From IMG/VR virus record IMGVR_UViG_3300037672_001277, positions 1 to 24,790 of that record: DNA of 24,790 nt. One strand, 5' to 3'. Each line of letters begins with the position of its first letter. The stretch's first letter is position 1. This document shows positions 5,074-24,790 of the stretch, in pieces. This DNA is from a virus. A model generated the notes under the pieces. The model saw only the letters and a program-made list of their open reading frames with translations, did not search any database and was not told where the DNA came from. The position numbers were made by a program, and so were the translations under genes.

Positions 5074-5081
5074 TATTTATA
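5074..5081 (-). promoter_or_regulatory. T4-type late promoter octamer before gp8
   Basis: The minus strand reads TATAAATA here, identical to the T4 late promoter consensus recognised by the gp55 sigma factor. It lies 34 bp upstream of the gp8 ATG. The octamer shares its TAA with the stop codon of the giant structural gene (5077-5079). Confidence 0.65.
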
Positions 5082-8000: not shown

Positions 8001-11000
8001 CCGCACTGGGATTCCAATAAACATTAGTTCCAGCGGCACCTACATTAACTCTTAGAGTATTTGCAGTTACATTGGAGATTGTCAAATATTGATTAAAAAT
8101 TGGATCAGTTGAACGAGGGTATGTTTTATTACCAGTACCCATAGCACAACTGAATGTGATGCCATTCTCTTGAATAGAAACAGCATCACCATTTACTAGT
8201 CCATGAGCACTTGCGAACGAGATGGTAGAAATACCCGTAGAAGGATCATAAGTAAACCCATTAGGAGTTCCGACAGGATTCTTGGGACATACAAATTTCA
8301 GCCTATCCAACTTCATCTGATCTTCAAGTCTAAGACCATGACTCTTGAGAGTAGAAACGGTCAAGATACCTGTCTTATTATCATAATCTGCATCAATAAT
8401 GCCGTAAGAGATACCTGTAGTAGGAACGCCTACAACGCCCGTGATGGAGTTTCCAGCACCAATCTCTAGTCTTACCCTAGCACCAGCAAACGGAGCGTAC
8501 CCACGCCCAGGAGTAGATGCCAGAGAGACAATGATGCCACCTCTAGGTAGTTGGTTTTCATTAATATCCCCTTCATCAATAATTAGATCTGAATATCCTA
8601 CTGAAGTAATACCAGTAAACTGAACACTTGCAATACCTCCTACTGTTTGTTCAATAATTTGGAAGTTATATGCTCCAGAATTATTAAATCCAAACGGAGC
8701 TTGGAACATGCTGTTAACAAACAGAACACCGTTACCCCCAGTTGTACCAATACCAGTAACGGCAGCACCAGCAGAAGTTAAACCAAATGTATTTTGAAGT
8801 CCATCAAACTTGTCAGAGATGTCATCAAAAATTTGGTTGGTATCGTAATCTTGTCTGAGGTAAGTTCTACCGCCAAACGATGCTCTAGGATATGATAGAT
8901 TACTTGGGTCAGTTTGACCTAAGTCACCACCAAGAGGAGCTTCTGTAAAGTGAACATTACTGTTAACAATTTGGAAAGATCCTCTATAGATTCTTCCCAA
9001 TGCACCTGCTGCATGATCTGTTGCTGCTGATCCAACTGCTCCACGCTCAACTTCTACAAGAGCCCAGGTTCCAATGCCAGTAATAGGTCCAATGGAAGTG
9101 GTGCCAAAACCTACAGTATTGACAATACTATATTCCTCATCAACACTGATAAGATCACCAGAAACAACTGTGCTGAGACCACTAAGAACAAATGCAGTTA
9201 CGATACCATTAACAGGAACCTCAAGATCATAAGAAACTGCGGTAAACGACAGTGGTTTCTGTACTAAACCATTAATAGCAACAATTGTTTTAGAGTCACG
9301 CTTATTCATGGTAAAGCGGTGCTGGTTACCTGCACCAACTCCATCTTCAAATGTTATACCAAGACCAGCTCTTGCATTATTAATTGTGGTTGCAATATTG
9401 AACTGATTATTGTTCTGTTTGACAATGTATACAGTTCCTGGCAGCGGTTCTGAGACAGGAGATGATAATGGGTAATATCTTAGAGCACTGGCAGCGATAC
9501 CGACCAGGTTAGAATCTGGCGTATAAGTAAGTTCTTCGGTGTTAGAGAAGAAGTGCTTAAGTGAGAATGTTCCATTTACTCTATTGAGCTCTAAAGGACT
9601 TGTAGGGTTGACTGCTCTCTCATAGATTGGAGTCCCTTGATACTTAAGTTCAAAACTACGGATATTTCTGTTGTTAATACCAAGATAGGTGTTTTGTGCT
9701 ACATTCTCAAATATCCTACCATAATCAAAGGAACCAATACCAGTAACATTACCGTTAGGGTCAAGATCTTTATAAAGAACTTCAGTGTAAGCTTTAATGC
9801 TTACCATTCCAGATACATTGGAATCAGGATACCACTTGAGCAATACCTGATTATTCTCAAATCCAGCACCAAATGTACCTACACCAGTTGTAGTTCCAAT
9901 CGCTGCAATTGGTTGCTGTGATAGGAATGTGTCTTGATTTGCTGGATCAGAGAGAACATAGATCTGATGGAGTGTTTGAGTGCTTCCATATGCCACATGA
10001 ACTGTGGACTTCATGGAGAGATCTACTCCACTGTTGATACCAACAACTGTTGTAATCCCAGTTGTAGCAGCAGCACTTACAACGATTCTTGCACTTCTTT
10101 CAGTGCCTTCTGGTGTGAAAGGAATATTGAAGTGTTTTACGGATGTGGTTCCAAGACCAACATTATTAAATGTGATAATTTTGGATCTTACATCCAGATT
10201 ATTAACTTCATCGTGAATATAATCAACTTTATATACATCATTTTCAATGTAACTGGTAAAGGTTCCCATGAACTTACCAGCAGAAAGACCACCCAAACTC
10301 TGCCTTGTATTGAATGATGCGAGTTCTGTAGTATATGTGTCAGAACCATCGTATTGCAGAGCAAGCTCTACATAGTCTGCCTCATTAGTACCTTTGTCAA
10401 TAATAACAAAATGTGCAAGTCCAGCAACAAATCCAGTTGTTGTTCCAATTCCAACAATATTAGTTGTTGTTCCTGTAGAAACAATTTTGTTGGAAGAAAC
10501 ATTCTCTACTACACCAAGTGTACCGATACCAGATCCAATGTCAGCAGCAAAACCTTGCTGCATAACCTTAATATCATAGTCAGTGTCATATGGTTCGTAT
10601 GGCTTGATTCTTAACTGGGTTTGATTAGAAAGAGTATCAAATACACTAAAGAATTGTGCAAGACCAGTAGAAAGACCGACCTGGTTAGTATTAACCATGT
10701 GCGACTTCTGAAGGAAGTAAGTATTCTTATTGATGGTAATAAGAATTGCTTCATTCAACTGATATTGATTCTTCTGAGGATCATTAGCTTTATGAACGGT
10801 TTGAATCAGATATCTAGAGAAGTTTCTACCTGCAATAACAGATGCAACTGTTCTTTCATCACTAAGATCGTTAGATTCGTTGCTAACAAACTCAGGACTG
10901 ATGTCATCATGAAGCAGAACTCTGTTAGTCTTACAGAGAATAAAGTCCGAAAGTCTATTAGATTCTAATTGAAGAAACTTAGAAACTGTTGCTGTGGCAT

Positions 11001-14000
11001 CAACATCTCGTGAACGGTCAAAATTGTAGATAGAGTCAACTCTTAGTGGATCAGAAACAAAGTCAAGGACTAATCCACCAGCATCATCTGCAGGTTCTAA
11101 AGACTCTCCAGCATTACCAACAGAAAGAATTTGTGTATTTGCAAAATTCTTAAATCCAGCTGGATGTACAATGTCATTTACATAATTCACTAACTCTTCA
11201 TATGTCTTAGAACTTTCAATCGCATAAGACATATTTTGATAATAATCATTATCTGGTAAGAATTGATTGCCATCATTAATCTTACCAACATTATCAGACC
11301 AACCAAGGTCTGCGTTTATCGTAGAGTCAATATTAAAATACCCATCAAATTCAATTACATCTTGAACTTCTGCAGAGTCACCGCTATTTGTACCGGTGAT
11401 TTTATCATCAATCTCAAGGTTGAAAGATCCACTGATTACCAGGATACCTGTCTTAGTATCAATAGAATCAAGAACAAGGTTTGTTGATAAGTCGTTATTT
11501 CTTCTCAGAGGTTCATTTAATTTGAATTCTGAGAATGCTTTTGTTACTGAGAATTGAGCAAGATTTTCTGCCTTGACAATCTGACCAAAACCAGGGATAC
11601 ATGTTGCACCAGTACCAACATTTGACGAAATTCCAATATAGTTAAATGTTACTTGTCTTGGGTTTGTAGCACTATTATAATCCGCAACAGAGAAGTTTTG
11701 GAACTTGTAGTCACCAGAGTTAAATCCGTCACCGTCGTTATTGAATGTAACTCCTTCTAAGAATACTATATCTCCAGTATTAAAAGGTTCGATTACATAA
11801 CCAAGAACTGGAGTTTGAATCTTACAAGTAAGGACACCAACATCACTGAACGCTTCAATAACACCAACACCATTACTATTCTGTAGTGGAGCTAGACCAT
11901 AGTCATTACCAGTAAGTCCTCTTGGATTTACAATAACACTAACACTGTTGACAGCAGAATCACTCAGTTCACAGGTAATCAGACCATTATCAATAATCTC
12001 TCCAGTTGACTTATCATACACAACCAGAGAAGGAGCGTTAAGATACTGTCTACCACCAAATACAACTTTTGCATCAATAAGTTTATTGGCATTTTTAGCT
12101 TGAACAATTCTAGGTAAGAACGCATCTGGTCTCAATGTAATATCAGAAGGATATCCATAAACATCTGTTGGGACAACAACCGAGTCTAAAAGGTTTATAT
12201 TATCGCCTGTAGGAGTAATAACTGCACTAATTCCAATCGTTCCTACACCAGATACCCCAGGAAGTTTAGAGTAATTGATGCCACCACTTTGCAATCTAAT
12301 CTTAGCAACACCACCAGTAGCTCCAATTGAAGTGGTTGTGTAGAAAATATCATCACAATCATCTCTAAGGTATGACAGTTTTTCGGGAGTTACTGCAATA
12401 TTAGCTGTAATAGTGGTTGACCCTACTCCAGTTACGGTGTAGTTACCAGTAAATCCACTATTAAAATAGAGAATTTGGTTGTTAGAAAGTACATCGTTAT
12501 CAGAAGATACGATGTAACCACCTTTTTCTATCGTATAGAATAAAGTTTCAGTTACCTCGGAATCAAAAGTAATTGTTTTTCTGGGAGTATCTGCTGGATT
12601 AGTGGTTGCAATACCAACTGTACCAACACCAATAACTTGGAGATTTGTTGTATTACCAGTTCCGATATACTCATTAAAGTTATTTGCGTCATAGAATATC
12701 TTTAAATCTGATCCAAGAAGACTTGAGTCGCTTAAGTTAAATACAATATCATTTTGTTTTGTGACATTGATAGGAGGATTGACGGGGTTTACTGTTTGAC
12801 CAGTAAATCCAGTGCTTGTAAAACCAACAACTTCTGGAGGATTTTTGAATAGTTGAGTATAAGAGTTTGTCAGCTGGAAATTATTATTATCAATTTTCAA
12901 CACAAAATATGGTCTCTGAGATAATCCACCTGGTACTTGACTAGGAACTCCGCCTGCACCATACATCAAGACTTTAAATCCTGTTTGTAAGTTATGATCC
13001 GCTACAGTAAATACATTCGTTGTGGTATTGACTCCAGATGTGGGAATCTCAACAGGATTTACAACAACAAAACCATCAAGAAGTCGGATATCTACCATCG
13101 TAGATGCTCCAATACCAGTCGCAAATCCTGGTCTTACGGTGAGATTTAACTCATCATTTTCAGATAATTTGTGATCATTCTCAGTAGTAATCGTAATAGT
13201 GCTTCTAGTTGCATCAGCAGTCTCTTGAGCATAATTTGTCTCAATAGAGTAAGTATATACATCGTCACCATTTGTGACAAAGAAGAGCTCATCAGAGTTT
13301 GTTGTAGTCTTTAAACCAATAGAACTATTAGTAAGTCTAGTTACAAAGAAGTCTCCTGAGATACCACTAGGAGCAATCCAAGGATCTACCGATCTAGTTG
13401 CTTGGATTGCAGTATTGCCATTGTTCTTTAAAGTAACTTTTTGATTATTGACTAATGGGTGATTATTAAGGTAGAGGTTCTGCGACATCAACGAAGCTGT
13501 ACCAGTATTAGGTCCAACAGTCACCAAAACTGATGTTGAAAGACCTGCAGTAGTTCCAACACCAACAGACTCCCTAGGATTGAAGTAGAATGTTTCTTGG
13601 AACTTAGAATTAAAAGGATCGGTCTCTACAGGAACTGTAAACTTATTTTGATAATAAGTGATAGCACTTCCCACAAACTCAGTCGTAGTAGTTACTCCAA
13701 CTGGTCTCTCAAGTCTAATATACGGACCAATTTTTTCTGATGGGAATGTTTCTAGAAGTCTAGCAATTTCTGTTCCAATACCAACGGAGTCACCAACGGA
13801 AACATTGGGTGGAATAAATCTTACATGAATATCGGTAACAATACCAGTAAAGGTAGTTGTAATAGCAACCGTTTTGTAATCAGTTACTGCAATTTTTTTA
13901 TATCCTTCAAGATTTCTAACAAAAGTAGAAACACCTGTAACTTCAATTACATCATTTGCTTGGAAATCATGGAAGGGGAAATTTTGAAAAGTAACTCCAT

Positions 14001-17000
14001 TTCCATCAAAAACGATTGGGCAAGAACTAAGCTTTCTCTTATCACTCTCAACTTTATTAACTTGTTGACCAAGTATTCTAGAAACTTCCGCATCAGCACC
14101 AGTGCCACTGGTTCCAACATTGTTAAAGATTAAGTTTTCTCCAATAGAGTACCCTTCACCAGGACTATCAATAACAAAACCATCGATAGAAGATACGATG
14201 AGGTTATCTGGATTTGATATCTGGTTAACTTTCTTATATGGTTGGAAAACATAATCATATGCAACACCATCACCAAACAAGTTGTAAGGTGTTGTATTTC
14301 TAGTTAATTCAGAACCCTCAAAGTTAAATTCAACTTGGTTCTGCATCTTACCCAGAAGAGTATTTTCTGGAACAGCAAAACTACGATAAGTATCACCAAT
14401 AAAGAATGGGAATACGGGTTTGTTTAGAATATCTACAGTAGCAAAATATGCATAAACACCTTGTGGGAATTCTGGAGTTTTTGTAAATCTTCCATTATGT
14501 TCATCTAAGTCGCCGTTCCCTGTATAAACAAAATCATCAACAAAGTATCCAAACGGGAATAAGGAAGATGCAGGTCTGTTTGGAATGTTTGTAGCAACAA
14601 TCTCATAACCAGAGATCATTCTTTTAACATCAGACTGAACATCAGCTGGATTGTTTAGTCCGTAAGGTCCATAAATTGGGTTTCCATCATACGCCCATCC
14701 AACAATAGGAGAGTGACCACTCCCATCATCATTCATAAATTCGCGGAAAGATTTACCATATCCAACATAATTTACAGCAAGACCCTCATTATTAGGATAG
14801 AGGACTGCCATCTCATCTTGATCTAAGTCAAATGCACTGCTGACAAGAATAGGTCTAATAGCAGCTTCACATTTAAAGTTAGTGCCAACAGGAAGCACAC
14901 TTATGCTGGTAGTTGTATCTGCATAACCAACACCAGAAGAAATGATCTTAACATCAGTAATTTTGCCGTTAGATACAATACTTCTAAGAATCGCGCCAGT
15001 AGCAGTGGCACCTACACTAACAACTTCTAAATCTGGTGGTCCAGTGTAACCAGACCCACCATTCTGAACAAAAGCATCTGCAATCTTACCATTTGCAATA
15101 ACTAAACCAATTTGCCCAAGAACTCCAAAAGGAATACTGACATTTGGAGAATTATCAAAACTTACAATATCTGATCCATAATTTCTACCTTCTTCATATA
15201 AGAGAATGTCTTCAATTTCTCCTCTAACAATTGGAGTAGCTACAAGTGTTTTTTCTTGACTATCCTTTGTAAGAATATTAACATTACACTTAATTTCTGG
15301 ACTAAAGAATCTCTGGAAACCAGATCCGTTAGTTTCTAAGATAATATTATCATGATTGAAGAAATCGGTAAAAATACCAACTTTATCACCTTTGTTTCCA
15401 GCTTCTGCTAATCTAAATCTATTTTCGTCCAATCTAAGGACTTTATATTGTTTAGATGAATCAATACCACTTACAGGAGTTGTATCATAAGTATAATTTA
15501 TGATATCGCCATTCTTCCAACCATGCCTCTTAAAATAGACCCAATTGTTTGCTGTATTGATACCAGCGGGTTTTACTGCAAGATGTCTATTAGAATATCC
15601 ACTGCCAGGATCCTCAACAATCAATTTACCAATTGTTGTTCTTTGTTCAGATGTTCTGAAGATATGAACACCAGAATTAGCTAAAAGAGCGTTCTCATCA
15701 AAGGTAATAGTGCTAAGACCTAAGATAGCATCAGTTTTGTTGTTATGTAAAGAGACAACCCTAGGACTCTTGACATTAGCAAAGTATACCTGACCATTGA
15801 AGAGACTAAGTTCTTGATTAGCTGGTCCAGTGGTTCCGATACCAAGATTTCCTGCGCCATTGTTATCATAAATGATTTTCTCACCATCTGAGAAGTTGTG
15901 ATCATTATTAAAAGCAATAGTGTTGTCAAAAGAGCGTGTATTACCACTAAGATTGGTGCTAACGCCTGAGAAGAAGACTTCTCTAAATCTTTCTTCTAAA
16001 AATGCTCTTGCAATTGCTCCAGAACCGTTTCCGCCAAAAATTTCAATGCCAGTGACCTTATCAATGTCAAAATCTGTTGGGTCAATGAAAATACTCTTTA
16101 CACTACCGCTAACTACAGATACCGCACCAGCAGTATTTGCTACGCTAACATTTTCATCTGTAATGACAATGTTTGGTGGATTTTGAGCATCATAATCTGT
16201 ACCAGAGTTCAGAATATTAACTCTTTCAATAGGACCGAAGAAAACTGTATCTGCAGACTTGTAATTTAGTATTTCTGTACCATTTACAAGCATTCCAGTG
16301 TTACCATCTGCAGTTCTTTCAGATGTTGTTTGTAATTCCTTACCACTAGTAAGATTTTGCTCTAAAACAAACCGACGAACTGGTCTAGAAGGGAAAATAC
16401 TTCTTCTTGCTTGAGATGCAAAAACAAAATCATGTTCACCAGTATTACCTGACAGAGGAGGTGAGAAATAAACAGGTAGATTAGCTTTAATAAAAGATCT
16501 TGACTGATAAAGTTTAATTTTGTTATTTGAACCTTGGACTTCAACAAAGAATGTCTTTGATTGATCAATGCCACCTATGGCAGGAGTTCCTGGAGCAGGA
16601 ACATACGAAATCTCATCTCCAGTTTGGAAAGGAACTGCATTGTCGAATGAAATAATAGCATATCCGTTTTTAATAGAGTCAAATCCTTGCCAGTTGCCTA
16701 ACGCAAGTGTTGGGTTTGTTAACTTTGCATGAACCTTGTCAATATTGATTGTGTAACTGGGAAGCGAACTAGAAGCAACAAAACCTTCTCTTTTTTTGCT
16801 ACTAGATACCGACTCATCCGAAATATATGTGTTATTGATATCAGCTAACAGTTGCTCATCCCCACCAAGGATTGGAACAATCGTAGATGTCGCTTTTTTC
16901 TGTCTTCTAATTATGTCATGGTCAAAAGTAGTATCAAGAGTACCAACATTGCCACTAACGGTAATTGAATTGGTAACTCTATTGATATTCGTTACTTTTA

Positions 17001-18501
17001 AATCGACCGCAACGATAGTTGACGCTCCTCGTCTGACAATATCAACCGTATCTCCAATCATTAGAGAACTTGGTTCAATATAACCACCAATTGTAAAATT
17101 GGAACCAGCAAAACTCTCAATTAAGAATCTAGTCGATGTATTGTAGATCCAACTGTTAAAAAATACAGTTTCATAGGTTCCATTATCAGAATCAAAGTAT
17201 CTACCTAAGTTTCTTACTCTAATGGCAGAACCGTAGTCTAAATTACGAAGAGGTTGGTTGCTTTTAAATTTAGAGATAACACCAGTTACTCTCATTTCGA
17301 CCTTTTTGGTCAAATCACTACTTTCATAACCATAAACTACTGTAGGTGCAGTAATAGTGATATTATCTGGAATTTCTACAGTAGTTGTATCAACATCATA
17401 GAATTGGTTTACACTTTTTGTAGTATAATTGAGTTGTTGATAATAACTATCTGTAGGTGTTCCAATTTCAAGTACACCTTCTGTAGAAAATCCAACAGTA
17501 GAATCTACTGTAAGTACAGAAGCACCTAAACCAATAATTCCAATATTTCTTGTTCTACCTGCGATGACAAATGTACCATCAGTTAGGGATCTCTCGTCAA
17601 AACCAGTAAAAAGTGATATTTTATAAAAATTATCTCTAATCTGAGTTACTTCAGAGATTGGACCTGAAGCTGCGTTGATCTTATCATCATTAGGATCGTT
17701 ATCTTGGAATAAAGTCTCACCAACAAGACCAAAAATGTCACCAGAGAGTAATTCTACAGAAATACTCTTTCTGCGAACATAGTTGGCAAACGAAGGTTTA
17801 ATAAGATATTTTTCAAGGTCATTAATTTTTGGTTCAAGACCAAATAATGCCTTGAACAAGATAACGAAGGAAGCTCTTGTTCCTTTAGACTCATATAAAC
17901 TTCTTGCTTCCTTAATAAAGTTGCCTACATTCAAATCTGGTGAGAGAGTTACACCCTCTAGACCAGGAGCATAAATTCCTTTTAATTTTCTATAAAATTC
18001 TTTTAAAAATAAAGAACTAAGGTTATTAACATTTGCGCCAGACTCATGAGAAGCAGCAGTAGTGTCCTCATAGATTAAATTTGAGAGATCGTTCCTTTTT
18101 CTGTAGGATGAAATGCCACTGAATCCACGAGAACACCCAACGAACGAAGTCTGAGTCTTTTCAGTGTAAGTAATGATCTCATCATTGATTTTTAGAAGAC
18201 CATATTTTGCTGGAAATCCATCTGTATCGTCTACAACGATAGTATCGTCAGACGCAGAAATAGAAGCGTTCAGAGAAGTAGTTCCTCTGATCACATCTTT
18301 GGTTAAATTGTCTAAACTGATGTATGCATCAAGATTTTCGATGATGTCAGCTGGACCACCACGGAAATCTTGAGAAATATAGTATTGTTCTAAGAATTTT
18401 GTAAAAAACGGATTCTCAGAAATGGCAAACTCAGGAATAGTCTGACTTACCGTCTGATAGGTTTTAACCCGAGGACTTAGAGGCGAATATGTTTCGATCA
18501 T
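5077..18501 (-). CDS. Giant virion structural protein (4474 aa) in the gp7 position, degenerate YHYH domain
   Basis: A single uninterrupted frame of 4474 codons lies between gp6 and gp8, the place of the wedge initiator gene 7 in T4 (gp7 is 1032 aa). Residues about 1-260 look like a distinct head: PEFAISENPFFTKFLEQYY, a DDTIVVDDTDGFPAKYGLLKI segment split by a Cys-Ser-Arg-Gly turn, then YESKGTRASFVILFKALFGLEP. Residues about 1224-1370 form a YHYH-type domain (GHSPIVGWAYDGNPIYGPYG at about 1260-1279), but the signature strand reads YAYF, so the histidines are lost. Residues about 3390-3905 hold repeated modules with HTYPRxTDP motifs and HTFxSA segments. Much of the rest is Gly/Thr/Val-rich with many GIGTT/GVGTT strings. 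The C-terminus (YPTVQRRGVGLRETGALPRR) looks conserved in cyanophages. ATG is 1 nt after the gp6 stop, with AGTAGG adjoining it. Virion location is strongly suggested by context; gp7 equivalence is inference from synteny. Confidence 0.9.
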   Translation of the reverse strand: MIETYSPLSPRVKTYQTVSQTIPEFAISENPFFTKFLEQYYISQDFRGGPADIIENLDAYISLDNLTKDVIRGTTSLNASISASDDTIVVDDTDGFPAKYGLLKINDEIITYTEKTQTSFVGCSRGFSGISSYRKRNDLSNLIYEDTTAASHESGANVNNLSSLFLKEFYRKLKGIYAPGLEGVTLSPDLNVGNFIKEARSLYESKGTRASFVILFKALFGLEPKINDLEKYLIKPSFANYVRRKSISVELLSGDIFGLVGETLFQDNDPNDDKINAASGPISEVTQIRDNFYKISLFTGFDERSLTDGTFVIAGRTRNIGIIGLGASVLTVDSTVGFSTEGVLEIGTPTDSYYQQLNYTTKSVNQFYDVDTTTVEIPDNITITAPTVVYGYESSDLTKKVEMRVTGVISKFKSNQPLRNLDYGSAIRVRNLGRYFDSDNGTYETVFFNSWIYNTSTRFLIESFAGSNFTIGGYIEPSSLMIGDTVDIVRRGASTIVAVDLKVTNINRVTNSITVSGNVGTLDTTFDHDIIRRQKKATSTIVPILGGDEQLLADINNTYISDESVSSSKKREGFVASSSLPSYTINIDKVHAKLTNPTLALGNWQGFDSIKNGYAIISFDNAVPFQTGDEISYVPAPGTPAIGGIDQSKTFFVEVQGSNNKIKLYQSRSFIKANLPVYFSPPLSGNTGEHDFVFASQARRSIFPSRPVRRFVLEQNLTSGKELQTTSERTADGNTGMLVNGTEILNYKSADTVFFGPIERVNILNSGTDYDAQNPPNIVITDENVSVANTAGAVSVVSGSVKSIFIDPTDFDIDKVTGIEIFGGNGSGAIARAFLEERFREVFFSGVSTNLSGNTRSFDNTIAFNNDHNFSDGEKIIYDNNGAGNLGIGTTGPANQELSLFNGQVYFANVKSPRVVSLHNNKTDAILGLSTITFDENALLANSGVHIFRTSEQRTTIGKLIVEDPGSGYSNRHLAVKPAGINTANNWVYFKRHGWKNGDIINYTYDTTPVSGIDSSKQYKVLRLDENRFRLAEAGNKGDKVGIFTDFFNHDNIILETNGSGFQRFFSPEIKCNVNILTKDSQEKTLVATPIVRGEIEDILLYEEGRNYGSDIVSFDNSPNVSIPFGVLGQIGLVIANGKIADAFVQNGGSGYTGPPDLEVVSVGATATGAILRSIVSNGKITDVKIISSGVGYADTTTSISVLPVGTNFKCEAAIRPILVSSAFDLDQDEMAVLYPNNEGLAVNYVGYGKSFREFMNDDGSGHSPIVGWAYDGNPIYGPYGLNNPADVQSDVKRMISGYEIVATNIPNRPASSLFPFGYFVDDFVYTGNGDLDEHNGRFTKTPEFPQGVYAYFATVDILNKPVFPFFIGDTYRSFAVPENTLLGKMQNQVEFNFEGSELTRNTTPYNLFGDGVAYDYVFQPYKKVNQISNPDNLIVSSIDGFVIDSPGEGYSIGENLIFNNVGTSGTGADAEVSRILGQQVNKVESDKRKLSSCPIVFDGNGVTFQNFPFHDFQANDVIEVTGVSTFVRNLEGYKKIAVTDYKTVAITTTFTGIVTDIHVRFIPPNVSVGDSVGIGTEIARLLETFPSEKIGPYIRLERPVGVTTTTEFVGSAITYYQNKFTVPVETDPFNSKFQETFYFNPRESVGVGTTAGLSTSVLVTVGPNTGTASLMSQNLYLNNHPLVNNQKVTLKNNGNTAIQATRSVDPWIAPSGISGDFFVTRLTNSSIGLKTTTNSDELFFVTNGDDVYTYSIETNYAQETADATRSTITITTENDHKLSENDELNLTVRPGFATGIGASTMVDIRLLDGFVVVNPVEIPTSGVNTTTNVFTVADHNLQTGFKVLMYGAGGVPSQVPGGLSQRPYFVLKIDNNNFQLTNSYTQLFKNPPEVVGFTSTGFTGQTVNPVNPPINVTKQNDIVFNLSDSSLLGSDLKIFYDANNFNEYIGTGNTTNLQVIGVGTVGIATTNPADTPRKTITFDSEVTETLFYTIEKGGYIVSSDNDVLSNNQILYFNSGFTGNYTVTGVGSTTITANIAVTPEKLSYLRDDCDDIFYTTTSIGATGGVAKIRLQSGGINYSKLPGVSGVGTIGISAVITPTGDNINLLDSVVVPTDVYGYPSDITLRPDAFLPRIVQAKNANKLIDAKVVFGGRQYLNAPSLVVYDKSTGEIIDNGLITCELSDSAVNSVSVIVNPRGLTGNDYGLAPLQNSNGVGVIEAFSDVGVLTCKIQTPVLGYVIEPFNTGDIVFLEGVTFNNDGDGFNSGDYKFQNFSVADYNSATNPRQVTFNYIGISSNVGTGATCIPGFGQIVKAENLAQFSVTKAFSEFKLNEPLRRNNDLSTNLVLDSIDTKTGILVISGSFNLEIDDKITGTNSGDSAEVQDVIEFDGYFNIDSTINADLGWSDNVGKINDGNQFLPDNDYYQNMSYAIESSKTYEELVNYVNDIVHPAGFKNFANTQILSVGNAGESLEPADDAGGLVLDFVSDPLRVDSIYNFDRSRDVDATATVSKFLQLESNRLSDFILCKTNRVLLHDDISPEFVSNESNDLSDERTVASVIAGRNFSRYLIQTVHKANDPQKNQYQLNEAILITINKNTYFLQKSHMVNTNQVGLSTGLAQFFSVFDTLSNQTQLRIKPYEPYDTDYDIKVMQQGFAADIGSGIGTLGVVENVSSNKIVSTGTTTNIVGIGTTTGFVAGLAHFVIIDKGTNEADYVELALQYDGSDTYTTELASFNTRQSLGGLSAGKFMGTFTSYIENDVYKVDYIHDEVNNLDVRSKIITFNNVGLGTTSVKHFNIPFTPEGTERSARIVVSAAATTGITTVVGINSGVDLSMKSTVHVAYGSTQTLHQIYVLSDPANQDTFLSQQPIAAIGTTTGVGTFGAGFENNQVLLKWYPDSNVSGMVSIKAYTEVLYKDLDPNGNVTGIGSFDYGRIFENVAQNTYLGINNRNIRSFELKYQGTPIYERAVNPTSPLELNRVNGTFSLKHFFSNTEELTYTPDSNLVGIAASALRYYPLSSPVSEPLPGTVYIVKQNNNQFNIATTINNARAGLGITFEDGVGAGNQHRFTMNKRDSKTIVAINGLVQKPLSFTAVSYDLEVPVNGIVTAFVLSGLSTVVSGDLISVDEEYSIVNTVGFGTTSIGPITGIGTWALVEVERGAVGSAATDHAAGALGRIYRGSFQIVNSNVHFTEAPLGGDLGQTDPSNLSYPRASFGGRTYLRQDYDTNQIFDDISDKFDGLQNTFGLTSAGAAVTGIGTTGGNGVLFVNSMFQAPFGFNNSGAYNFQIIEQTVGGIASVQFTGITSVGYSDLIIDEGDINENQLPRGGIIVSLASTPGRGYAPFAGARVRLEIGAGNSITGVVGVPTTGISYGIIDADYDNKTGILTVSTLKSHGLRLEDQMKLDRLKFVCPKNPVGTPNGFTYDPSTGISTISFASAHGLVNGDAVSIQENGITFSCAMGTGNKTYPRSTDPIFNQYLTISNVTANTLRVNVGAAGTNVYWNPSAADYNPNVGIMTVTIGTHDLYVGKGVVIPDNAFTFTCAQDSNATNHTYPRATDPASGTSLSVVAIGTVTSNITAAQYDSTAGILTATSAGHNLMVGNRVQIQGNSLTFTCTQDGNATNHTYPRSSDPINGKWVAVASTAANTFSIDVGASPVGQRYGHTFISAASGALVKQTGTIELNVGTGGTGTSAHTFVSAATSAIQSLPQSVHTFISATTDSIKTLNYQGITTSFFPDYEDSLPVTGIISARTFKTLVGPSTIPHTYESGGTVAQYYPLSFGSGYKTNIGTIGIAVTDYEYAHTFSSAGLGSITANTGSAYTATTASYASTTGNLILTIPNHGLTTSNTVAIATDSIGFKCSRDNYLGEHLYPRPTDPVAGIFTSINSVTTNTIAVNIGVGGGAGTGADISAVVGAGGTLIFTVNDGGSNYVNANALPPEPNGENLPIVGISRIGLGNTTITGVGASICVQVLGVGTATGIGSTLFEVKEFEFSKKGYGFKRGDKFTVAGLSTDPNAGDSFQEFELEVVSVFTDQIASWQFGNIDYIDSIKADQDGSRKRFPLYYERQLVSFETDINDLDSKEIDLSTVLLVFINGVVQEPGRNYQFTGGSILEFTTAPTTQDNVVIFFYRGTIGQDSFIFGVNENVKVGDSLKINKSTDVEFNRVPKDSRSGAQERERIVTRIDSAAVVETPFYQGVGISNDVFKPVTWNKQKRDFIIEGQLVTKARDSLEALINPFSHIIADFSTNDAEVYVDSTALFKGTTDALSASTLNLFAFAEVGFGTTAASGINHEQLVGVPNLVANIQGYIGLVTGISTCPGIGTDLALKIDFDISDLVNTGKNVTGFETNRPFKLYGTGINTLGAAVTSIFDHDSRIVAISTEYGDSIYYTSALTFKNGGRNGIITANIASYTDVSDFVGIGSTAIPYCHLTWGKFSGFTRGAQPVALAVSGFTYSDDLDAYPTVQRRGVGLRETGALPRRL

Positions 18502-20829: not shown

Positions 20830-20852
20830 GAAATGGCACTATATATCGAGAT

Positions 20853-20860
20853 TATTTATA
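20853..20860 (-). promoter_or_regulatory. T4-type late promoter octamer before gp25
   Basis: The minus strand reads TATAAATA, a perfect T4 late consensus, in the gap between the 46-aa His-rich gene (stop at 20866) and gp25 (ATG at 20829). The predicted start of transcription would leave a leader of only about 15 nt. Confidence 0.7.
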
Positions 20861-20865
20861 GAGTC

Positions 20866-21006
20866 TCACTCTAGGTCTTCATCATCTACAACTTCTTCGC
20901 TTAGTAAAGACTGCCTTTTGTGATCATGCTTATGATCACCAGCTACTTCTCTCAGCATTTTTTCATGCTGATGAGCAGCAAGATTATCTAGGAAGTCGTT
21001 TGTCAT
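20866..21006 (-). CDS. Small His-rich acidic-tailed protein, 46 aa, unknown function
   Basis: I choose the ATG at 21006 (MTNDFLDNLAAHQHEKML...) over an upstream start at 21117, because the longer form would overlap the upstream 221-aa gene by more than 90 nt and adds residues with no conserved look, whereas the short form leaves a 19-nt gap. The protein has an amphipathic start, a His/Lys/Asp patch GDHKHDHKRQ (about residues 24-33) and a strongly acidic end (EEVVDDEDLE). A late-promoter-like AATAAATA lies at 21027-21034, and the true late octamer of gp25 follows its stop. Its position immediately before gp25 suggests a role in baseplate assembly or a virion role, but I do not recognise the family. 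Two perfect inverted repeats fall inside this short coding region (20920-20939 and 20952-20971). No Shine-Dalgarno is apparent. Confidence 0.7.
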   Translation of the reverse strand: MTNDFLDNLAAHQHEKMLREVAGDHKHDHKRQSLLSEEVVDDEDLE

Positions 21007-21025
21007 ATTAAAAGACCATGTTTGG

Positions 21026-21834: not shown

Positions 21835-21988
21835 TTAGATCTCTAATAATATGTGTGACTGAATCAGGATGAGGAGTACCTGTCTGATAAAATGAGATAG
21901 CATACTCCTCCATAAGATCCATGAATTCGTCTTCACTTACATCGGTGTGCCTCTCAGACCCATCAACATAGATTGTGTAGACTTCCAT
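21827..21988 (-). CDS. Small acidic protein, 53 aa, unknown function
   Basis: ATG at 21988 opens a 53-codon frame, 7 nt after the stop of the glycosyltransferase gene, and it overlaps the start of the next gene by 8 nt. The product begins MEVYTIYVDGSERHTDVSED, has an acidic helix (EFMDLMEEYAISFYQ) and ends with TGTPHPDSVTHIIRDLNG. The layout, a short beta start, then an acidic helix, then a TGTPHP turn, resembles small hypothetical proteins common in cyanomyovirus genomes. No catalytic motif, signal peptide or membrane segment is present. No Shine-Dalgarno is visible before the ATG, so translation may depend on coupling with the upstream gene. Function unknown. Confidence 0.75.
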   Translation of the reverse strand: MEVYTIYVDGSERHTDVSEDEFMDLMEEYAISFYQTGTPHPDSVTHIIRDLNG

Positions 21989-21995
21989 AGATCAA

Positions 21996-22751
21996 TCAGA
22001 TAACCCGAGTCTTCTCGTGACCAACCCTGATACGGGGATCACACCAAATCTCAAATCCTGCTTCGATAGCGTCGAGGCAGAAACTCACATCCTCTCCACA
22101 CATATCCTGGACATCGCCAGACTCAAAGACTTGCATCTTCGGTGCGAACCATGGATACTTCATCTCTTCGTGCTCAAAGACTCCATTCTTAATCAGAACC
22201 CATCCGAAACCTGTGTAGTCTACAGTGAAGGGCTTCTTACGCTTGGACATCGTTTCACCAGTCTCATGATTCATGACACCACCGTTGTTACGGAAGTCTC
22301 CTTCTTCTAACCAGTGAGCAACAGATGTAGTACGACCATCTTCAGTCATATACCAACCAGCTGCAATTTCCTTCTCCATAAGAACCAACTGCAAGAACTT
22401 CTCAGTATTGTAAACAATATCCGAGTCGATCCACAACTGATAATCATACTTAAGTTTTCCGTCCCAGGGAACCTGATCAGGACCACGAAGGACATTCGCT
22501 CCAAGACACTTGCATCTTGCAAAGTTTACCATGGAGGAATAGTCTTGACTGATCTGAATACTGGCTCCCATTTGCACCAGATCAAAACTCAGTTGTAAAA
22601 AACTCTTGAGGAACTGATAAGAACATCCGCGACCTGGCATACAGAAGACAATTGCCTTGCCCCTGAGCATCTCGCGAGCCTTATCATAGTCCCATTCTGG
22701 TTCTTCTTTCTTCTGGGGTGCTTTTGCTTTTACAGTAAATCCTTTAGCCAT
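21996..22751 (-). CDS. GT-A fold glycosyltransferase-like protein, 251 aa
   Basis: After a Lys/Pro-rich lead (residues 1-25) the protein has a beta strand KAIVFCMPGRGCSYQF (about 32-47), then YDYQLWIDSDIVY, in which D109-S110-D111 is a DxD motif expected to bind metal and the nucleotide-sugar phosphate. Further on are CGEDVSFC (about 218-225), matching the ED-containing acceptor segment of GT-A enzymes, and VGHEK, with H245 a likely third metal ligand. Length and layout fit a single-domain GT-A transferase. The sugar donor and acceptor cannot be read from sequence. Candidates include virion proteins encoded just downstream, phage DNA, or a host surface target. A sigma70-like promoter at 22773-22801 sits 22 bp before the ATG, so it may be expressed before or independently of the late genes. 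It is followed after 7 nt by the 53-aa gene. Confidence 0.82.
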   Translation of the reverse strand: MAKGFTVKAKAPQKKEEPEWDYDKAREMLRGKAIVFCMPGRGCSYQFLKSFLQLSFDLVQMGASIQISQDYSSMVNFARCKCLGANVLRGPDQVPWDGKLKYDYQLWIDSDIVYNTEKFLQLVLMEKEIAAGWYMTEDGRTTSVAHWLEEGDFRNNGGVMNHETGETMSKRKKPFTVDYTGFGWVLIKNGVFEHEEMKYPWFAPKMQVFESGDVQDMCGEDVSFCLDAIEAGFEIWCDPRIRVGHEKTRVI

Positions 22752-22772
22752 AACGATTAATTACGCATCATC

Positions 22773-22801
22773 ATTCTAACAGTTTATATAGTACGAGTCA
22801 A
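22773..22801 (-). promoter_or_regulatory. Sigma70-type promoter for the glycosyltransferase gene
   Basis: On the minus strand TTGACT (22801-22796) and TAGAAT (22778-22773) are separated by exactly 17 bp; each hexamer matches consensus at five of six positions. A start near 22766 would leave a leader of about 15 nt before the ATG at 22751. The -35 directly abuts the stop codon of the 58-aa gene, and its spacer contains an AT-rich TATATAAA. Confidence 0.5.
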
Positions 22802-22978
22802 TTACCCGTCATATTCTTCTTCGAGGAAGATCCCATCGACATCCAGAGTCATTACGATCTCTGTCCCATCATACCAATCAAGTTCATTACAATAGTTCTC
22901 AGGTATTGTTATGACATACTCATTACTTACAGGATCGACCCATATAGTAGATTTTACCTTGTGGGATTTTTTTTCCAT
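22802..22978 (-). CDS. Small AbrB/SpoVT-like swapped-hairpin protein, 58 aa
   Basis: ATG at 22978 opens a 58-codon frame ending TAA at 22802. After a basic start (MEKKSHKVKS) the pattern is TIWVDPVSNEYVITIPENY followed by CNELDWYDGTEIVMTLDVDG and IFLEEEYDG. This follows the AbrB-like beta-hairpin plan: strand, polar turn, ITIP-type strand, short helix, then a D.....GTEI strand and a final hairpin. AbrB-fold proteins are dimeric DNA-binding regulators in bacteria, but the strongly acidic tail and small size make DNA binding uncertain, and many phage relatives are uncharacterised. A perfect hairpin (22981-22998) ends 2 nt before the ATG and replaces any Shine-Dalgarno, so translation or transcription is likely controlled there. 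Fold assignment is by pattern only. Confidence 0.65.
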   Translation of the reverse strand: MEKKSHKVKSTIWVDPVSNEYVITIPENYCNELDWYDGTEIVMTLDVDGIFLEEEYDG

Positions 22979-22980
22979 AC

Positions 22981-23002
22981 ACGAACCTATGAGTTCGTTT
23001 TT
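22981..23002. promoter_or_regulatory. Hairpin/operator-like inverted repeat before the 58-aa gene
   Basis: ACGAAC (22981-22986) and GTTCGT (22993-22998) form a perfect 6-bp stem with loop CTATGA. On the plus strand it is followed by a T run, so it could end plus-strand transcripts. On the minus strand it stands 2 nt before the ATG of the 58-aa gene. A third GTTCGT lies at 23052-23057. It may be an operator, an RNA hairpin that limits ribosome access, or a terminator. Confidence 0.45.
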
Positions 23003-23097
23003 ATATATGAAATATTTTTTTTATTCCATTGATATATCGAGCTCGAATTCGGTTCGTTGTAGGTTACAAGGACCCATCAAATTTAAACCACTGTCTA

Positions 23098-23112
23098 ATA
23101 AGAACTGTGTGT
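23098..23112. repeat. 15-nt direct repeat, copy 1
   Basis: ATAAGAACTGTGTGT occurs here and again, identical, at 23309-23323. Similarity continues after a 2-base mismatch (ACTA in both), so the shared block is about 21 nt. The copies are 211 bp apart and flank the minus-strand promoter and the CTCAG tandem repeats. Confidence 0.6.
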
Positions 23113-23161
23113 CTACTAAGTGATACTCACAGCATCATGATGTAGGTCCCCCTCAATGATA

Positions 23162-23191
23162 CTCAGAATACCTCAGAATGCCTCAGAGCTG
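23162..23191. repeat. Three 10-nt tandem units beginning CTCAG
   Basis: CTCAGAATAC, CTCAGAATGC and CTCAGAGCTG follow head to tail. A related TGATACTCA occurs twice nearby (23121-23129 and 23157-23165). The block would lie in the leader of a transcript from the promoter at 23262. Confidence 0.55.
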
Positions 23192-23261
23192 TTACATAGT
23201 GCCTGTGAGTGATTGATAGCCAGCTGGCATGTGATTGGTGTGCCTGGGTGATGTCCTCCCT

Positions 23262-23291
23262 ATTATACCATGATGATGCCAGTCTTTGCAA
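23262..23291 (-). promoter_or_regulatory. Sigma70-type promoter with extended -10
   Basis: The minus strand has TGGTATAATAG, a perfect -10 hexamer (23267-23262) with an extended TG, and TTGCAA (23291-23286) 18 bp upstream as a -35 matching four of six positions. Transcription would start near 23255 and run through the repeat-rich region to the 58-aa gene, giving a leader of about 275 nt. The strong extended -10 is typical of host-RNA-polymerase early promoters. Confidence 0.55.
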
Positions 23292-23308
23292 TGTGTCTCA
23301 TAATACTC

Positions 23309-23323
23309 ATAAGAACTGTGTGT
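23309..23323. repeat. 15-nt direct repeat, copy 2
   Basis: Identical to the block at 23098-23112. This copy lies about 20 bp upstream of the -35 of the minus-strand promoter at 23262-23291. Confidence 0.6.
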
Positions 23324-23352
23324 GGACTATGTAACATAAAAATCCGAATTAC

Positions 23353-23381
23353 TTGACAAACTCCGATCCTCATGGTACGCT
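23353..23381 (+). promoter_or_regulatory. Possible plus-strand sigma70 promoter
   Basis: A consensus -35 TTGACA (23353-23358) is followed after exactly 17 bp by TGGTACGCT (extended TG, weak -10 TACGCT at 23376-23381). It points against all genes in the window. A T-rich hairpin follows about 55 bp after the -10. The poor -10 hexamer keeps this tentative. Confidence 0.25.
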
Positions 23382-23433
23382 CGCTTAGCTGACATCTCCT
23401 CCGCACATTTCTAAGGTTTATAACACTTTCTAC

Positions 23434-23456
23434 AAAACAGGCATATATGTTTTTTT
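23434..23456 (+). terminator. Weak terminator-like hairpin with T run
   Basis: AAAACA (23434-23439) pairs with TGTTTT (23448-23453) around an 8-nt loop and runs into a T tract. The stem is AT-rich and therefore weak. It would end a plus-strand transcript from the possible promoter at 23353-23381, giving an RNA of roughly 65-70 nt. Confidence 0.2.
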
Positions 23457-23481
23457 AACCCTTTTTAAATGATTTGATAAT

Positions 23482-23503
23482 ACACTTGGAAGACACTTGC
23501 AAG
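23482..23503. repeat. 11-nt tandem duplication
   Basis: ACACTTGGAAG and ACACTTGCAAG follow each other without a gap and differ at one base. They lie just beyond the stem-loop at 23507-23527. Confidence 0.6.
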
Positions 23504-23506
23504 ACG

Positions 23507-23527
23507 CCCCAGAGACACTCAGAGGGG
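23507..23527. terminator. GC-rich stem-loop after the 61-aa gene
   Basis: CCCC/GGGG (23507-23510 with 23524-23527) and an inner GAG/CTC (23512-23514 with 23518-23520) form a stem with an internal loop, directly after the stop of the 61-aa gene on the minus strand. There is no T run, so factor-independent termination is doubtful; it may instead stabilise the 3' end of the message. Confidence 0.3.
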
Positions 23528-23528
23528 T

Positions 23529-23714
23529 CTATTTGTCGTCTATGATGATTATACTATGTTGCTGGTTAGGGTACACACAGATGCAACACTGATTACTTCC
23601 GCGTCCATCAGGATTAGGTTTAGAGCTAAGGCAAATGGTTACATATTCTTCATCGATGAAGTTAATGAAACCTTTCATTCCTTGGTAGGTTACTGACTGA
23701 CCGCTGATGAACAT
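23529..23714 (-). CDS. Small conserved-looking protein, 61 aa, unknown function
   Basis: ATG at 23714 starts MFISGQSVTYQGMKGFINFI, followed by DEEYVTICLSSKPNPDGRGS, NQCCICVYPNQQHS and an Ile/Asp end (IIIIDDK). The first half has the plan of a small beta barrel (SGQ.V.Y.G..GFI.FIDEEYVTIC), and a Cys pair follows, CCIC. Proteins of this plan recur in marine cyanomyoviruses, but I know no function. The start lies 25 nt inside the end of the 56-aa gene, so the two are probably translated from one message. No Shine-Dalgarno is present. After the stop comes a GC-rich stem-loop and then the non-coding region, so this looks like the last gene of its transcription unit. Confidence 0.78.
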   Translation of the reverse strand: MFISGQSVTYQGMKGFINFIDEEYVTICLSSKPNPDGRGSNQCCICVYPNQQHSIIIIDDK

Positions 23715-23860
23715 GGTGATGATAGTTGATAGAGTGTGCTATCTAATAGGTCTGTGATATGTAAAGGCAATTGACCTTTACTTTCCCATCTATTTCTATA
23801 CTCTACTGTGAGTGATCTAAGTAATCCTAACTGTGTTGCACTAAGTTCAACTTTCATCAT
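23690..23860 (-). CDS. Small protein, 56 aa, unknown function
   Basis: The frame starts ATGATG at 23860 (a second in-frame ATG at 23857 is equally possible) and shares one base with the stop of the 46-aa gene in a TAATG junction. The product is MMKVELSATQLGLLRSLTVE followed by YRNRWESKGQLPLHITDLLD and a Ser-rich end. The pattern is a short strand followed by helices, with ELSATQLGLL and ITDLLDSTLYQL likely helical; no metal site or membrane segment is seen. Its last 25 nt overlap the start of the 61-aa gene in another frame. The head-to-tail junctions on both sides support it as real. Function unknown. Confidence 0.62.
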   Translation of the reverse strand: MMKVELSATQLGLLRSLTVEYRNRWESKGQLPLHITDLLDSTLYQLSSPCSSAVSQ

Positions 23861-24000
23861 TACCAATTAGCGAGGATAAGTTCTTCAGATAGGACAGGTT
23901 CTTCGGGGACAATGTTTAACAAATCGTCTCCTCTATTATACCACCAATCATGGGGGATTGCATCCATGATTTGTTCGATGTCGTAATCAAGTTTATCCAT
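23860..24000 (-). CDS. Small acidic protein, 46 aa, unknown function
   Basis: ATG at 24000 is preceded by AGGAG with a 10-nt gap, one of the clearest ribosome sites in the window, and follows the stop of the upstream gene by 18 nt. The product is MDKLDYDIEQIMDAIPHDWW followed by YNRGDDLLNIVPEEPVLSEE and a hydrophobic end (LILANW). It is strongly acidic with two Trp in a row (DWWYN). No known domain is seen. The stop shares a base with the start of the 56-aa gene (TAATG), indicating coupling. The coding strand also contains TGGTATAATAG at 23945-23935, nearly the same as the promoter at 23262, discussed separately. Function unknown. Confidence 0.7.
   Translation of the reverse strand: MDKLDYDIEQIMDAIPHDWWYNRGDDLLNIVPEEPVLSEELILANW
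23935..23942 (-). promoter_or_regulatory. Possible internal extended -10 element
   Basis: Within the 46-aa gene the minus strand reads TGGTATAAT with a perfect -10 (23940-23935), followed by AGAGGAG, closely like the element at 23262-23270. A TGCAAT lies 16 bp upstream as a poor -35. It could give extra expression of the 56-aa and 61-aa genes, or be chance coding sequence (TGG TAT AAT encodes Trp-Tyr-Asn). Confidence 0.25.
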
Positions 24001-24018
24001 GGCGGTGATACTCCTAGT

Positions 24019-24288
24019 CTAGAGAATTTCCAGAGATGTGACATCAATGTCTTCTAACATTATATCACATATGCGAGCAATTTCCTTTTGGGATGATGCT
24101 TCGATCTTAAAGATGAATCCATCGGTATCATGACGCAGAATCATGATGTTCATATGTTCTTCATATTTAGCGATGAAGTTGGCAATCAGATGAGGATTAT
24201 CATCAGTGAATGATATGAATAGTTCAGCAGATTCGGGCGAATAGAATTCAATACCTTTGGCAAGATTGTCGAGGGAGAGCTTAGACAC
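24019..24288 (-). CDS. Small protein, about 89 aa (start uncertain), unknown function
   Basis: The frame is open from a GTG at 24357, but that start lies in the terminator hairpin after the upstream gene, and the extra residues (about 1-23) are Pro/Phe-rich and unlike the rest. I therefore prefer GTG at 24288, giving (M)SKLSLDNLAKGIEFYSPES and onward; another GTG lies 15 nt upstream. No Shine-Dalgarno supports either, so the start is unsure. The protein has alternating strands and helices (AELFISFTDDNPHLIANFIA, MNIMILRHDTDGFIFKIEA, ISMLED-like acidic end MLEDIDVTSLEIL), suggesting a small alpha/beta fold. No motif identifies a function. It is followed after 18 nt by the 46-aa gene with a good ribosome site. 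Confidence 0.65.
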   Translation of the reverse strand: MSKLSLDNLAKGIEFYSPESAELFISFTDDNPHLIANFIAKYEEHMNIMILRHDTDGFIFKIEASSQKEIARICDIMLEDIDVTSLEIL

Positions 24289-24337
24289 GAAAGGAAAAGT
24301 CACAGGATGAGGAGTAAGAAAAGGATGGAATAAAAGC

Positions 24338-24365
24338 GGGCATAGATTGATGCCCACTCTTTTTT
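24338..24365. terminator. Hairpin terminator, possibly bidirectional, after the 115-aa gene
   Basis: GGGCAT (24338-24343) and ATGCCC (24350-24355) form a perfect 6-bp stem with a 6-nt loop. On the minus strand, which carries the genes, it begins about 20 nt after the stop at 24377 and is followed by GCTTTTATT. On the plus strand it is followed by a longer T run (24360-24365). A factor-independent terminator is the simplest reading. Confidence 0.6.
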
Positions 24366-24376
24366 AGATTTAATCA

Positions 24377-24724
24377 TCAGGCGAAGCAATAACCGTTAAC
24401 AAAATCATCAGCGTTGAAGACTTTGCTCTGACCTGCCTGCCCTACAAATTTGCGGACATACCAAACGAAATCCTTTTGAAATACTCCTTCGCCAGTGATG
24501 CAGAACTCATCACAGAGAGCGTTGAGGCGTGATTTTGTGGTTACAGACTGCCAACCGCCATCGAAGATGGTCATATCGTTGTCTGAGACCTCAGCGATTT
24601 TGTTGCCGTGTAGGCGGACGATGCTGATGCCTGTTTCTGAATCGAAGTGGACTGAGGTGTTGCCAGACTTCCAATCGATGTTGGCGTGGATGGCAGCGTT
24701 CATCTGAGTTTCGATCTTTCGCAT
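24377..24724 (-). CDS. Conserved cyanophage protein of unknown function, 115 aa
   Basis: I place the start at ATG 24724 (MRKIETQMNAAIHANIDWKS). An in-frame GTG at the window edge (24790) would add 22 residues but covers a stem-loop, and the ATG form matches my memory of a widespread cyanomyovirus protein beginning MRKIE.QMN. Further features are NTSVHFDSETGISIVRLHGN, KIAEV, the strong block FDGGWQSVTTKSRLNALCDE, then GVFQKDFVWYVRKF. The pattern suggests a small helix plus beta protein; the GGW and TTKSRLNAL segments look like its most constrained part. No enzyme or DNA-binding motif is recognised. A hairpin terminator follows its stop, so it ends a transcription unit; its promoter is probably near or beyond the right edge. 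No Shine-Dalgarno is seen. Confidence 0.82.
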   Translation of the reverse strand: MRKIETQMNAAIHANIDWKSGNTSVHFDSETGISIVRLHGNKIAEVSDNDMTIFDGGWQSVTTKSRLNALCDEFCITGEGVFQKDFVWYVRKFVGQAGQSKVFNADDFVNGYCFA

Positions 24725-24752
24725 GATGTAGAAGAGAAGAGAGTTTGAGAGC

Positions 24753-24775
24753 GTGGCGGGTGTTATCCCCTCCAC
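24753..24775 (-). promoter_or_regulatory. Stem-loop in the leader of the 115-aa gene
   Basis: On the minus strand GTGG and CCAC enclose GGG and CCC with single opposed bases (A opposite G) and a 7-nt loop. It lies about 28 nt before the ATG at 24724. It lacks a T run and may be a leader structure. Confidence 0.35.
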
Positions 24776-24790
24776 TCCTTTAATATACAC

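Follow-up and report, generated by a model that had tools for sequence, protein, structure and literature searches.

The window, by which we mean the whole stretch of viral DNA analysed here (24,790 bp), carries minus-strand genes including those for baseplate wedge proteins and a ferredoxin-family protein. Another minus-strand protein showed a weak match to a glycosyltransferase family, and is labelled GT after the annotation at its place in Sf-CH8. The relatives of the window are phages of Synechococcus and Prochlorococcus, so its source is, judging from the sequence, a T4-like cyanophage. A single 4474-aa ORF at 5077-18501, after gp6, occupies the place of the very large baseplate-wedge genes (gp7-like or initiator) of other cyanophages.

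Most neighbouring ORFs taken as genes overlap or sit within about 50 bp of each other. The gap at 22979-23528 (550 bp) is the largest in the window, the second largest having about 196 bp (20830-21025). It is flanked by minus-strand ORFs at 23529-23714 and 22802-22978, and lies upstream of gp25 and gp6 in the sense of transcription, beside an island of small genes. The initial annotation had described it as a repeat-dense non-coding segment in an otherwise packed genome, which is matched by its size and by repeats exceeding those of shuffled sequences. Relatives of the 58-aa neighbour gene are encoded in 17 loci, and the gap aligns in those of the 17 with enough upstream DNA; the nine relatives used below are nine of these alignable loci, near-duplicates included.

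The gap was also said to hold no convincing gene, and we reached the same result. Thirteen ORFs of at least 18 aa overlap it; the best (23021-23080, within the element called block B below) is intact in seven of the nine relatives and the others in zero to six, whereas both flanking genes are open in all nine. A small protein beginning MSAKRAYHEDR seemed conserved, but it has stops in L003 and L005 and is intact in none of the nine, so it is not a gene. The 19-aa frame MGPCNLQRTEFELDISME of block B, intact in seven of nine, was considered doubtful and rejected as a gene; by eye, the block B element persists in phages whose sequence loses the MGPCNLQRTEFELDISME frame. No Rfam family was matched and no tRNA was found in the gap, and a hairpin at 22981-22998, before the start at 22978, is not kept in the alignment with relatives.

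A candidate promoter pointing against the phage genes, P1, was located at 23353-23388 on the plus strand. Its sequence and conservation suggest a sigma-70-type promoter, whose parts are TTGACA (23353-23358), a 17-nt spacer with the extended -10 TGG, TACGCT (23376-23381) and CGCTTAG. Scanning viral contigs with the P1 pattern gave at least 119 stretches. Among the 119 matches listed, the spacer is 17 in 109, the variable base is preceded by TG in 89 and by TA in 17, and P1 opposes recognisable neighbour genes in 71 of the 72 having such a neighbour. The lone exception sits in a contig-end palindrome and looks artefactual; the inverted double copy of P1 in L022/L115 is likewise a perfect contig-end palindrome, and was read as an assembly or amplification artefact. 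The remaining 47 listed matches, which have no recognisable neighbour, include 37 with spacer 17 and 10 with another spacer, and many of these 10 look like chance.

Of seven records searched whole, six contain the exact P1 once, and the seventh, SynMITS9220M01, has a variant instead; a dispersed phage promoter was rejected on this ground. A P1-like pattern gave 22 scattered matches in 84,980 bacterial and archaeal genomes, none of them in records titled Synechococcus or Prochlorococcus, and a host-derived promoter was rejected. At the -10 position other cyanophages have TATAAT (S-SSM7, SynMITS9220M01), TAGAAT (S-SM2, S-B43), TAGACT (Bellamy), TAGAGT (S-SKS1), TATGAC (S-T4), TAGCCT (Sf-FS3) or TAAGAC (S-SSM4), with spacers of 17 or 18. 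Such drift, with the A at position 2 kept, is consistent with what is expected of a sigma-70 promoter, but it is not independent evidence, because the search accepted only sequences with this A and with T or C at the end. Syn9 has no convincing P1 and retains only what lies downstream of the promoter. The start of the predicted P1 transcript (23389-23416, plus strand) is conserved as ..ACA....CACATTT... in a profile of 74 distinct sites, chance matches left in.

For comparison among loci, 98 P1 candidates were reduced to 86 with full flanks and then to 53 clusters, the P1 loci. L106 was taken as a chance match and dropped from the analyses of the A/T motif, of P2 and the named phages, and of folding and conservation, leaving 52 loci. 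Bellamy, S-SKS1 and S-SSM4 are not independent, because they were fetched for matching another origin locus.

Divergent from P1 is a putative sense promoter, P2 (23262-23291, minus strand; TTGCAA-18-TATAAT, extended -10), found by promoter scan and with TGGTATAAT kept in relatives. A sigma-70-like counterpart behind P1 on the gene strand, scoring at least 11, is present in 43 of 52 loci, compared with 59 of 920 random windows. Opposing promoter signals had been noted in the initial annotation. Their counts alone are not above chance: a simple promoter scan of 21900-24790 found 3 where 7.4 were expected, and overlooked the most conserved promoter, P1, with its -10 of TACGCT. The signals are credible because they are conserved, and not because of their number.

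Two divergent conserved promoters are also what would be expected if the gap were an early transcription control region only, in which P1 would make a non-coding antisense RNA regulating the early small-gene operon, P2 would drive this operon, and the repeats would be operators for a phage regulator. A precedent is the antisense RNA CfrI of cyanophage S-PM2, as described in the consulted part of PMC2984593. CfrI and the predicted P1 transcript are alike as antisense transcripts of T4-like cyanophages; according to the same part, CfrI runs over psbA and a homing endonuclease gene, whereas P1 lies in the early gap upstream of gp25-gp6. Folding is divided: the P1 transcripts of 14 of 52 loci fold with z below -2, but structure is weak on average (mean z -1.1 over the 52 loci) and absent in the window, where the transcript folds no better than shuffles (z 0.75). 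This reading explains the promoters equally well, but does not account for the combination of A/T-rich block, repeat arrays and DnaA boxes. We rank it as the main rival to a replication origin, and consider it rather unlikely.

Several repeat types had been reported in the gap, and phased TGAG repeats, a 27-nt direct pair and an 11-nt inverted pair were indeed recovered. On its minus strand TGAG occurs 9 times, against 2.35 in dinucleotide shuffles, and TGAG pairs at 9-11-bp spacing occur 4 times, against 0.03 expected; none of 2000 shuffles reached either value. Array I (23482-23526) consists of 10-11-bp phased repeats (ACACTTGNAAG / ACACTCAGAG), has a TRF period of 11 and shows phased CTGAG in relatives. 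Array II (23126-23188, minus strand) consists of 10-bp phased TGAG repeats, as supported by the shuffle test. The copies of the 27-nt direct repeat, detected by repeat search, lie at 23095-23121 and 23306-23332 on the minus strand, and the second is 85% identical to the first. Phased CTGAG pairs number 29 in six related records, and 25 of them form two clusters within the gap; in two named phages the gap has no such pair, and three lie elsewhere.

Downstream of P1, TRF found 46 direct-repeat arrays in 19.4 kb, compared with 79 in 440 kb elsewhere. Since they occur in 26 of the 53 loci, evenly spaced arrays are not present in all relatives. The repeat units differ by lineage, from 10-11 bp in that of the window to 20-33 bp in L111, L116, L139, L166, L187 and L193; in these latter loci a unit is tandemly repeated of which the start of the predicted P1 transcript is one copy. 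Upstream of P1, palindromic repeats ATCTAGTCGAGAT / TCTCGTCGAGAT were seen at L249 11100-11270 (P-SSM2), L247 9440-9710 (S-T4) and L256 4630-4750 (S-SKS1), and no element of this type was seen by eye in the window. Boxes of the TATTGAGAATC type occur in both orientations downstream of P1 in many loci (e.g. L111, L147, L169, L196, L214), and are possible candidates for an initiator binding site. The sequence ATTGATTCTCAATA is found downstream of P1 in 8 loci and nowhere in 433 kb elsewhere.

Block B (23030-23085, minus strand; TAACCTACAACGAACC...) is a separate conserved element upstream of the 58-aa gene, and is also present in S-SSM7, Sf-FS3, S-B43, S-SSM4 and Syn9. Its sense-strand form CCTAACCTACAA(C/A)G.., often preceded by an A/T box TATATAAAA, recurs in many cyanophages; sites are at L100 about 4069, L258 4507, L253 6739, L252 7727 and L257 4139, in some cases apart from P1. 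It is possibly a leader or promoter element.

Alignment with relatives, proposed earlier as a check, revealed conserved blocks. Mean identity to the nine relatives is 89% for P1, 86% for block B and 84% for array II. It is 58% for P2 as aligned, about 60% for the A/T-rich block and 40% between P1 and P2. The freely drifting spacer between the promoters and the lack of a conserved ORF would suit a neutral spacer left by gene loss, with repeats arisen by chance. This explanation is refuted and we give it practically no credence, because the flanking genes, with 60% and 75% identity in the same alignment, are less conserved than P1, array II and block B.

Downstream of P1 is an A/T-rich block (23434-23479, plus strand), a candidate DNA unwinding element with a motif score of 32.1 in the window. 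Counted from the -35 of P1, A+T climbs from about 0.60 to about 0.73 at +100 to +179, and in most relatives the block lies about 80-270 bp downstream. The most A/T-rich 60-mer of the locus falls downstream of P1 in 33 of 53 loci. The motif obtained by iteration downstream of P1 is AAAacAca.at.tATaTTTataaa..taTTTa...; with this profile, which was trained on the same loci, 38 of 52 score at least 24.9 and 14 score below 20, and only one locus holds a stronger match at some other position. Seven cyanophages had been fetched independently of the motif (SynMITS9220M01, S-T4, Sf-FS3, S-SSM7, S-SM2, S-B43 and Syn9; 12-67 kb of each scanned), and in every one of them the best match is antisense to the genes, the score in S-T4 being low (10.1). 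A terminator function of the block was rejected, as its hairpins looked unconserved by eye.

DnaA boxes (TTWTCCACA) number 14 in 19.4 kb downstream of P1 against 7 in 433 kb elsewhere, about 45-fold, and are confined to 6 of 53 loci; in 13 named phages there are 9 in 5.85 kb against 4 in 145.5 kb. The A/T block thus has direct repeats around it and, in some lineages, these boxes as well. In the window, the stretch from 34 to 400 bp beyond the P1 -35 contains no DnaA box. Paired boxes occur in one place per genome, at the P1 locus, in S-SKS1, S-SM2, Syn9 and S-SSM4, that is in 4 of the 10 records searched whole. S-SKS1 is the clearest case, with a P1-like promoter, five tandem 22-bp repeats, three DnaA boxes and then the A/T block. 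As TTTTCCACA is the DnaA box of most cyanobacteria according to the consulted part of PMC4674748, the TTTTCCACA-type boxes beside A/T-rich DNA in these four phages resemble a cyanobacterial oriC. The phage loci differ in having two or three boxes, in some lineages only and not in the window, and in being tied to an antisense promoter. The likeness would suit a strictly DnaA-dependent origin, opened by host DnaA like a bacterial oriC, with the antisense promoter helping only by transcriptional activation. Such an origin seems quite improbable, given that neither the window nor 47 of 53 loci have boxes, and that the other six records searched whole have no pairs.

The guesses in the initial annotation were early control, an origin of replication or small RNAs. 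Divergent promoters, an A/T-rich block, direct repeats and, in relatives, DnaA boxes make the anatomy favour an origin combined with a control region, but the support for a structured small RNA is weak at best. On this comparison the gap probably serves as the replication origin, or one of them, of a T4-like cyanophage and also houses a divergent pair of early promoters. Host RNA polymerase would make the P1 RNA early, and proteins on the repeats would help the A/T block to open, either a phage protein or, in lineages with boxes, host DnaA. The P1 RNA would then stay annealed as an R-loop and prime leading-strand synthesis, as at T4 oriF and oriG, and P2 would meanwhile start the early genes that lead to the glycosyltransferase and in the direction of gp25-gp6.

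The conserved antisense P1, the A/T block, the repeat arrays, the DnaA boxes of some lineages and the divergent P2 support the origin. Against it are the rarity of DnaA boxes, the 14 of 52 loci with an A/T motif score under 20, the varying repeat units and the missing convincing P1 of Syn9. GC skew, tried as an independent test, gives no support for an origin: the cumulative minimum, the usual sign, was not found at the locus in the complete genomes of Sf-CH8 or Syn9. Instead a maximum lies within about 6-8 kb, at 30.4 kb in Sf-CH8 (P1 at 36.5 kb) and at 44.5 kb in Syn9 (locus at 52.6 kb). Detrended minima near 102 kb in both genomes mark a compositional boundary.

In T4, oriF and oriG have a promoter firing into an A/T-rich unwinding element, and the transcript forms an R-loop that primes replication, as described in the consulted part of PMC3016281. 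The gap has the same order of promoter and candidate element; the T4 promoters are MotA middle promoters, whereas P1 looks like an unmodified sigma-70 promoter, and cyanophages are without motA and asiA in the consulted part of PMC2984593. Because of this anatomy and the antisense position behind gp6, we read the gap as an origin that may work like oriE. By the T4 record annotation, oriE lies 1.7 kb upstream of gene 6 and its primer is complementary to the gene 5 transcript; P1 is antisense and 2.4-10.5 kb behind the gp6 start in 39 loci. The T4 primer RNA is antisense to late genes, and P1, a promoter by its sequence, is antisense to structural genes in the 71 of 72 cases among the matches listed. 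The same part of PMC3016281 gives oriE an early-type promoter and evenly spaced direct repeats of unproven role, and the arrays of the window are spaced at 10-11 bp. Unlike the non-coding cyanophage region, oriE is inside gene 5; DnaA boxes are not mentioned for T4 in that part of the paper. No match to P1 or to the A/T motif was found in T4 74.5-86 kb. The likeness to oriE is one of design and position; the search in T4 gave no sequence homology.

Near T4 oriE, 12-nt repeats at 24-nt spacing lie within gene 5 (L102 4926-5034). We take T4 gp5 to contain an eight-residue protein repeat, which 24 nt would fit, so these gene 5 repeats might reflect coding.

Besides a single theta origin predicted for Syn9, cited in PMC2984593, we found no mapped origin for T4-like cyanophages and no description of this element in open-licence PMC papers. 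That prediction, as given in the consulted part, agrees with the single unique locus per genome proposed here. Sullivan 2010 (PMC3037559) predicted promoters genome-wide, and the element is not described in the part of it consulted.

It is conceivable, though we hold this broader view only tentatively, that T4-like cyanophages of different genera replicate from a single dedicated, conserved origin, where an antisense promoter for host RNA polymerase makes the primer, and that several lineages have added host DnaA boxes. If this is true, T4-like phages borrow the initiator of cyanobacterial chromosome replication, and phage DNA synthesis could be tied to the light-dependent replication state of the host. 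T4-like cyanophages are abundant ocean viruses. If the origin reading is right, it predicts origins in P-SSM2, Syn9, S-SM2, S-SSM7, Bellamy and numerous uncultured phages, and supplies a counterpart to T4 oriE, whose repeats are still without an assigned role. The use of host DnaA by a T4-like phage would then become directly testable.
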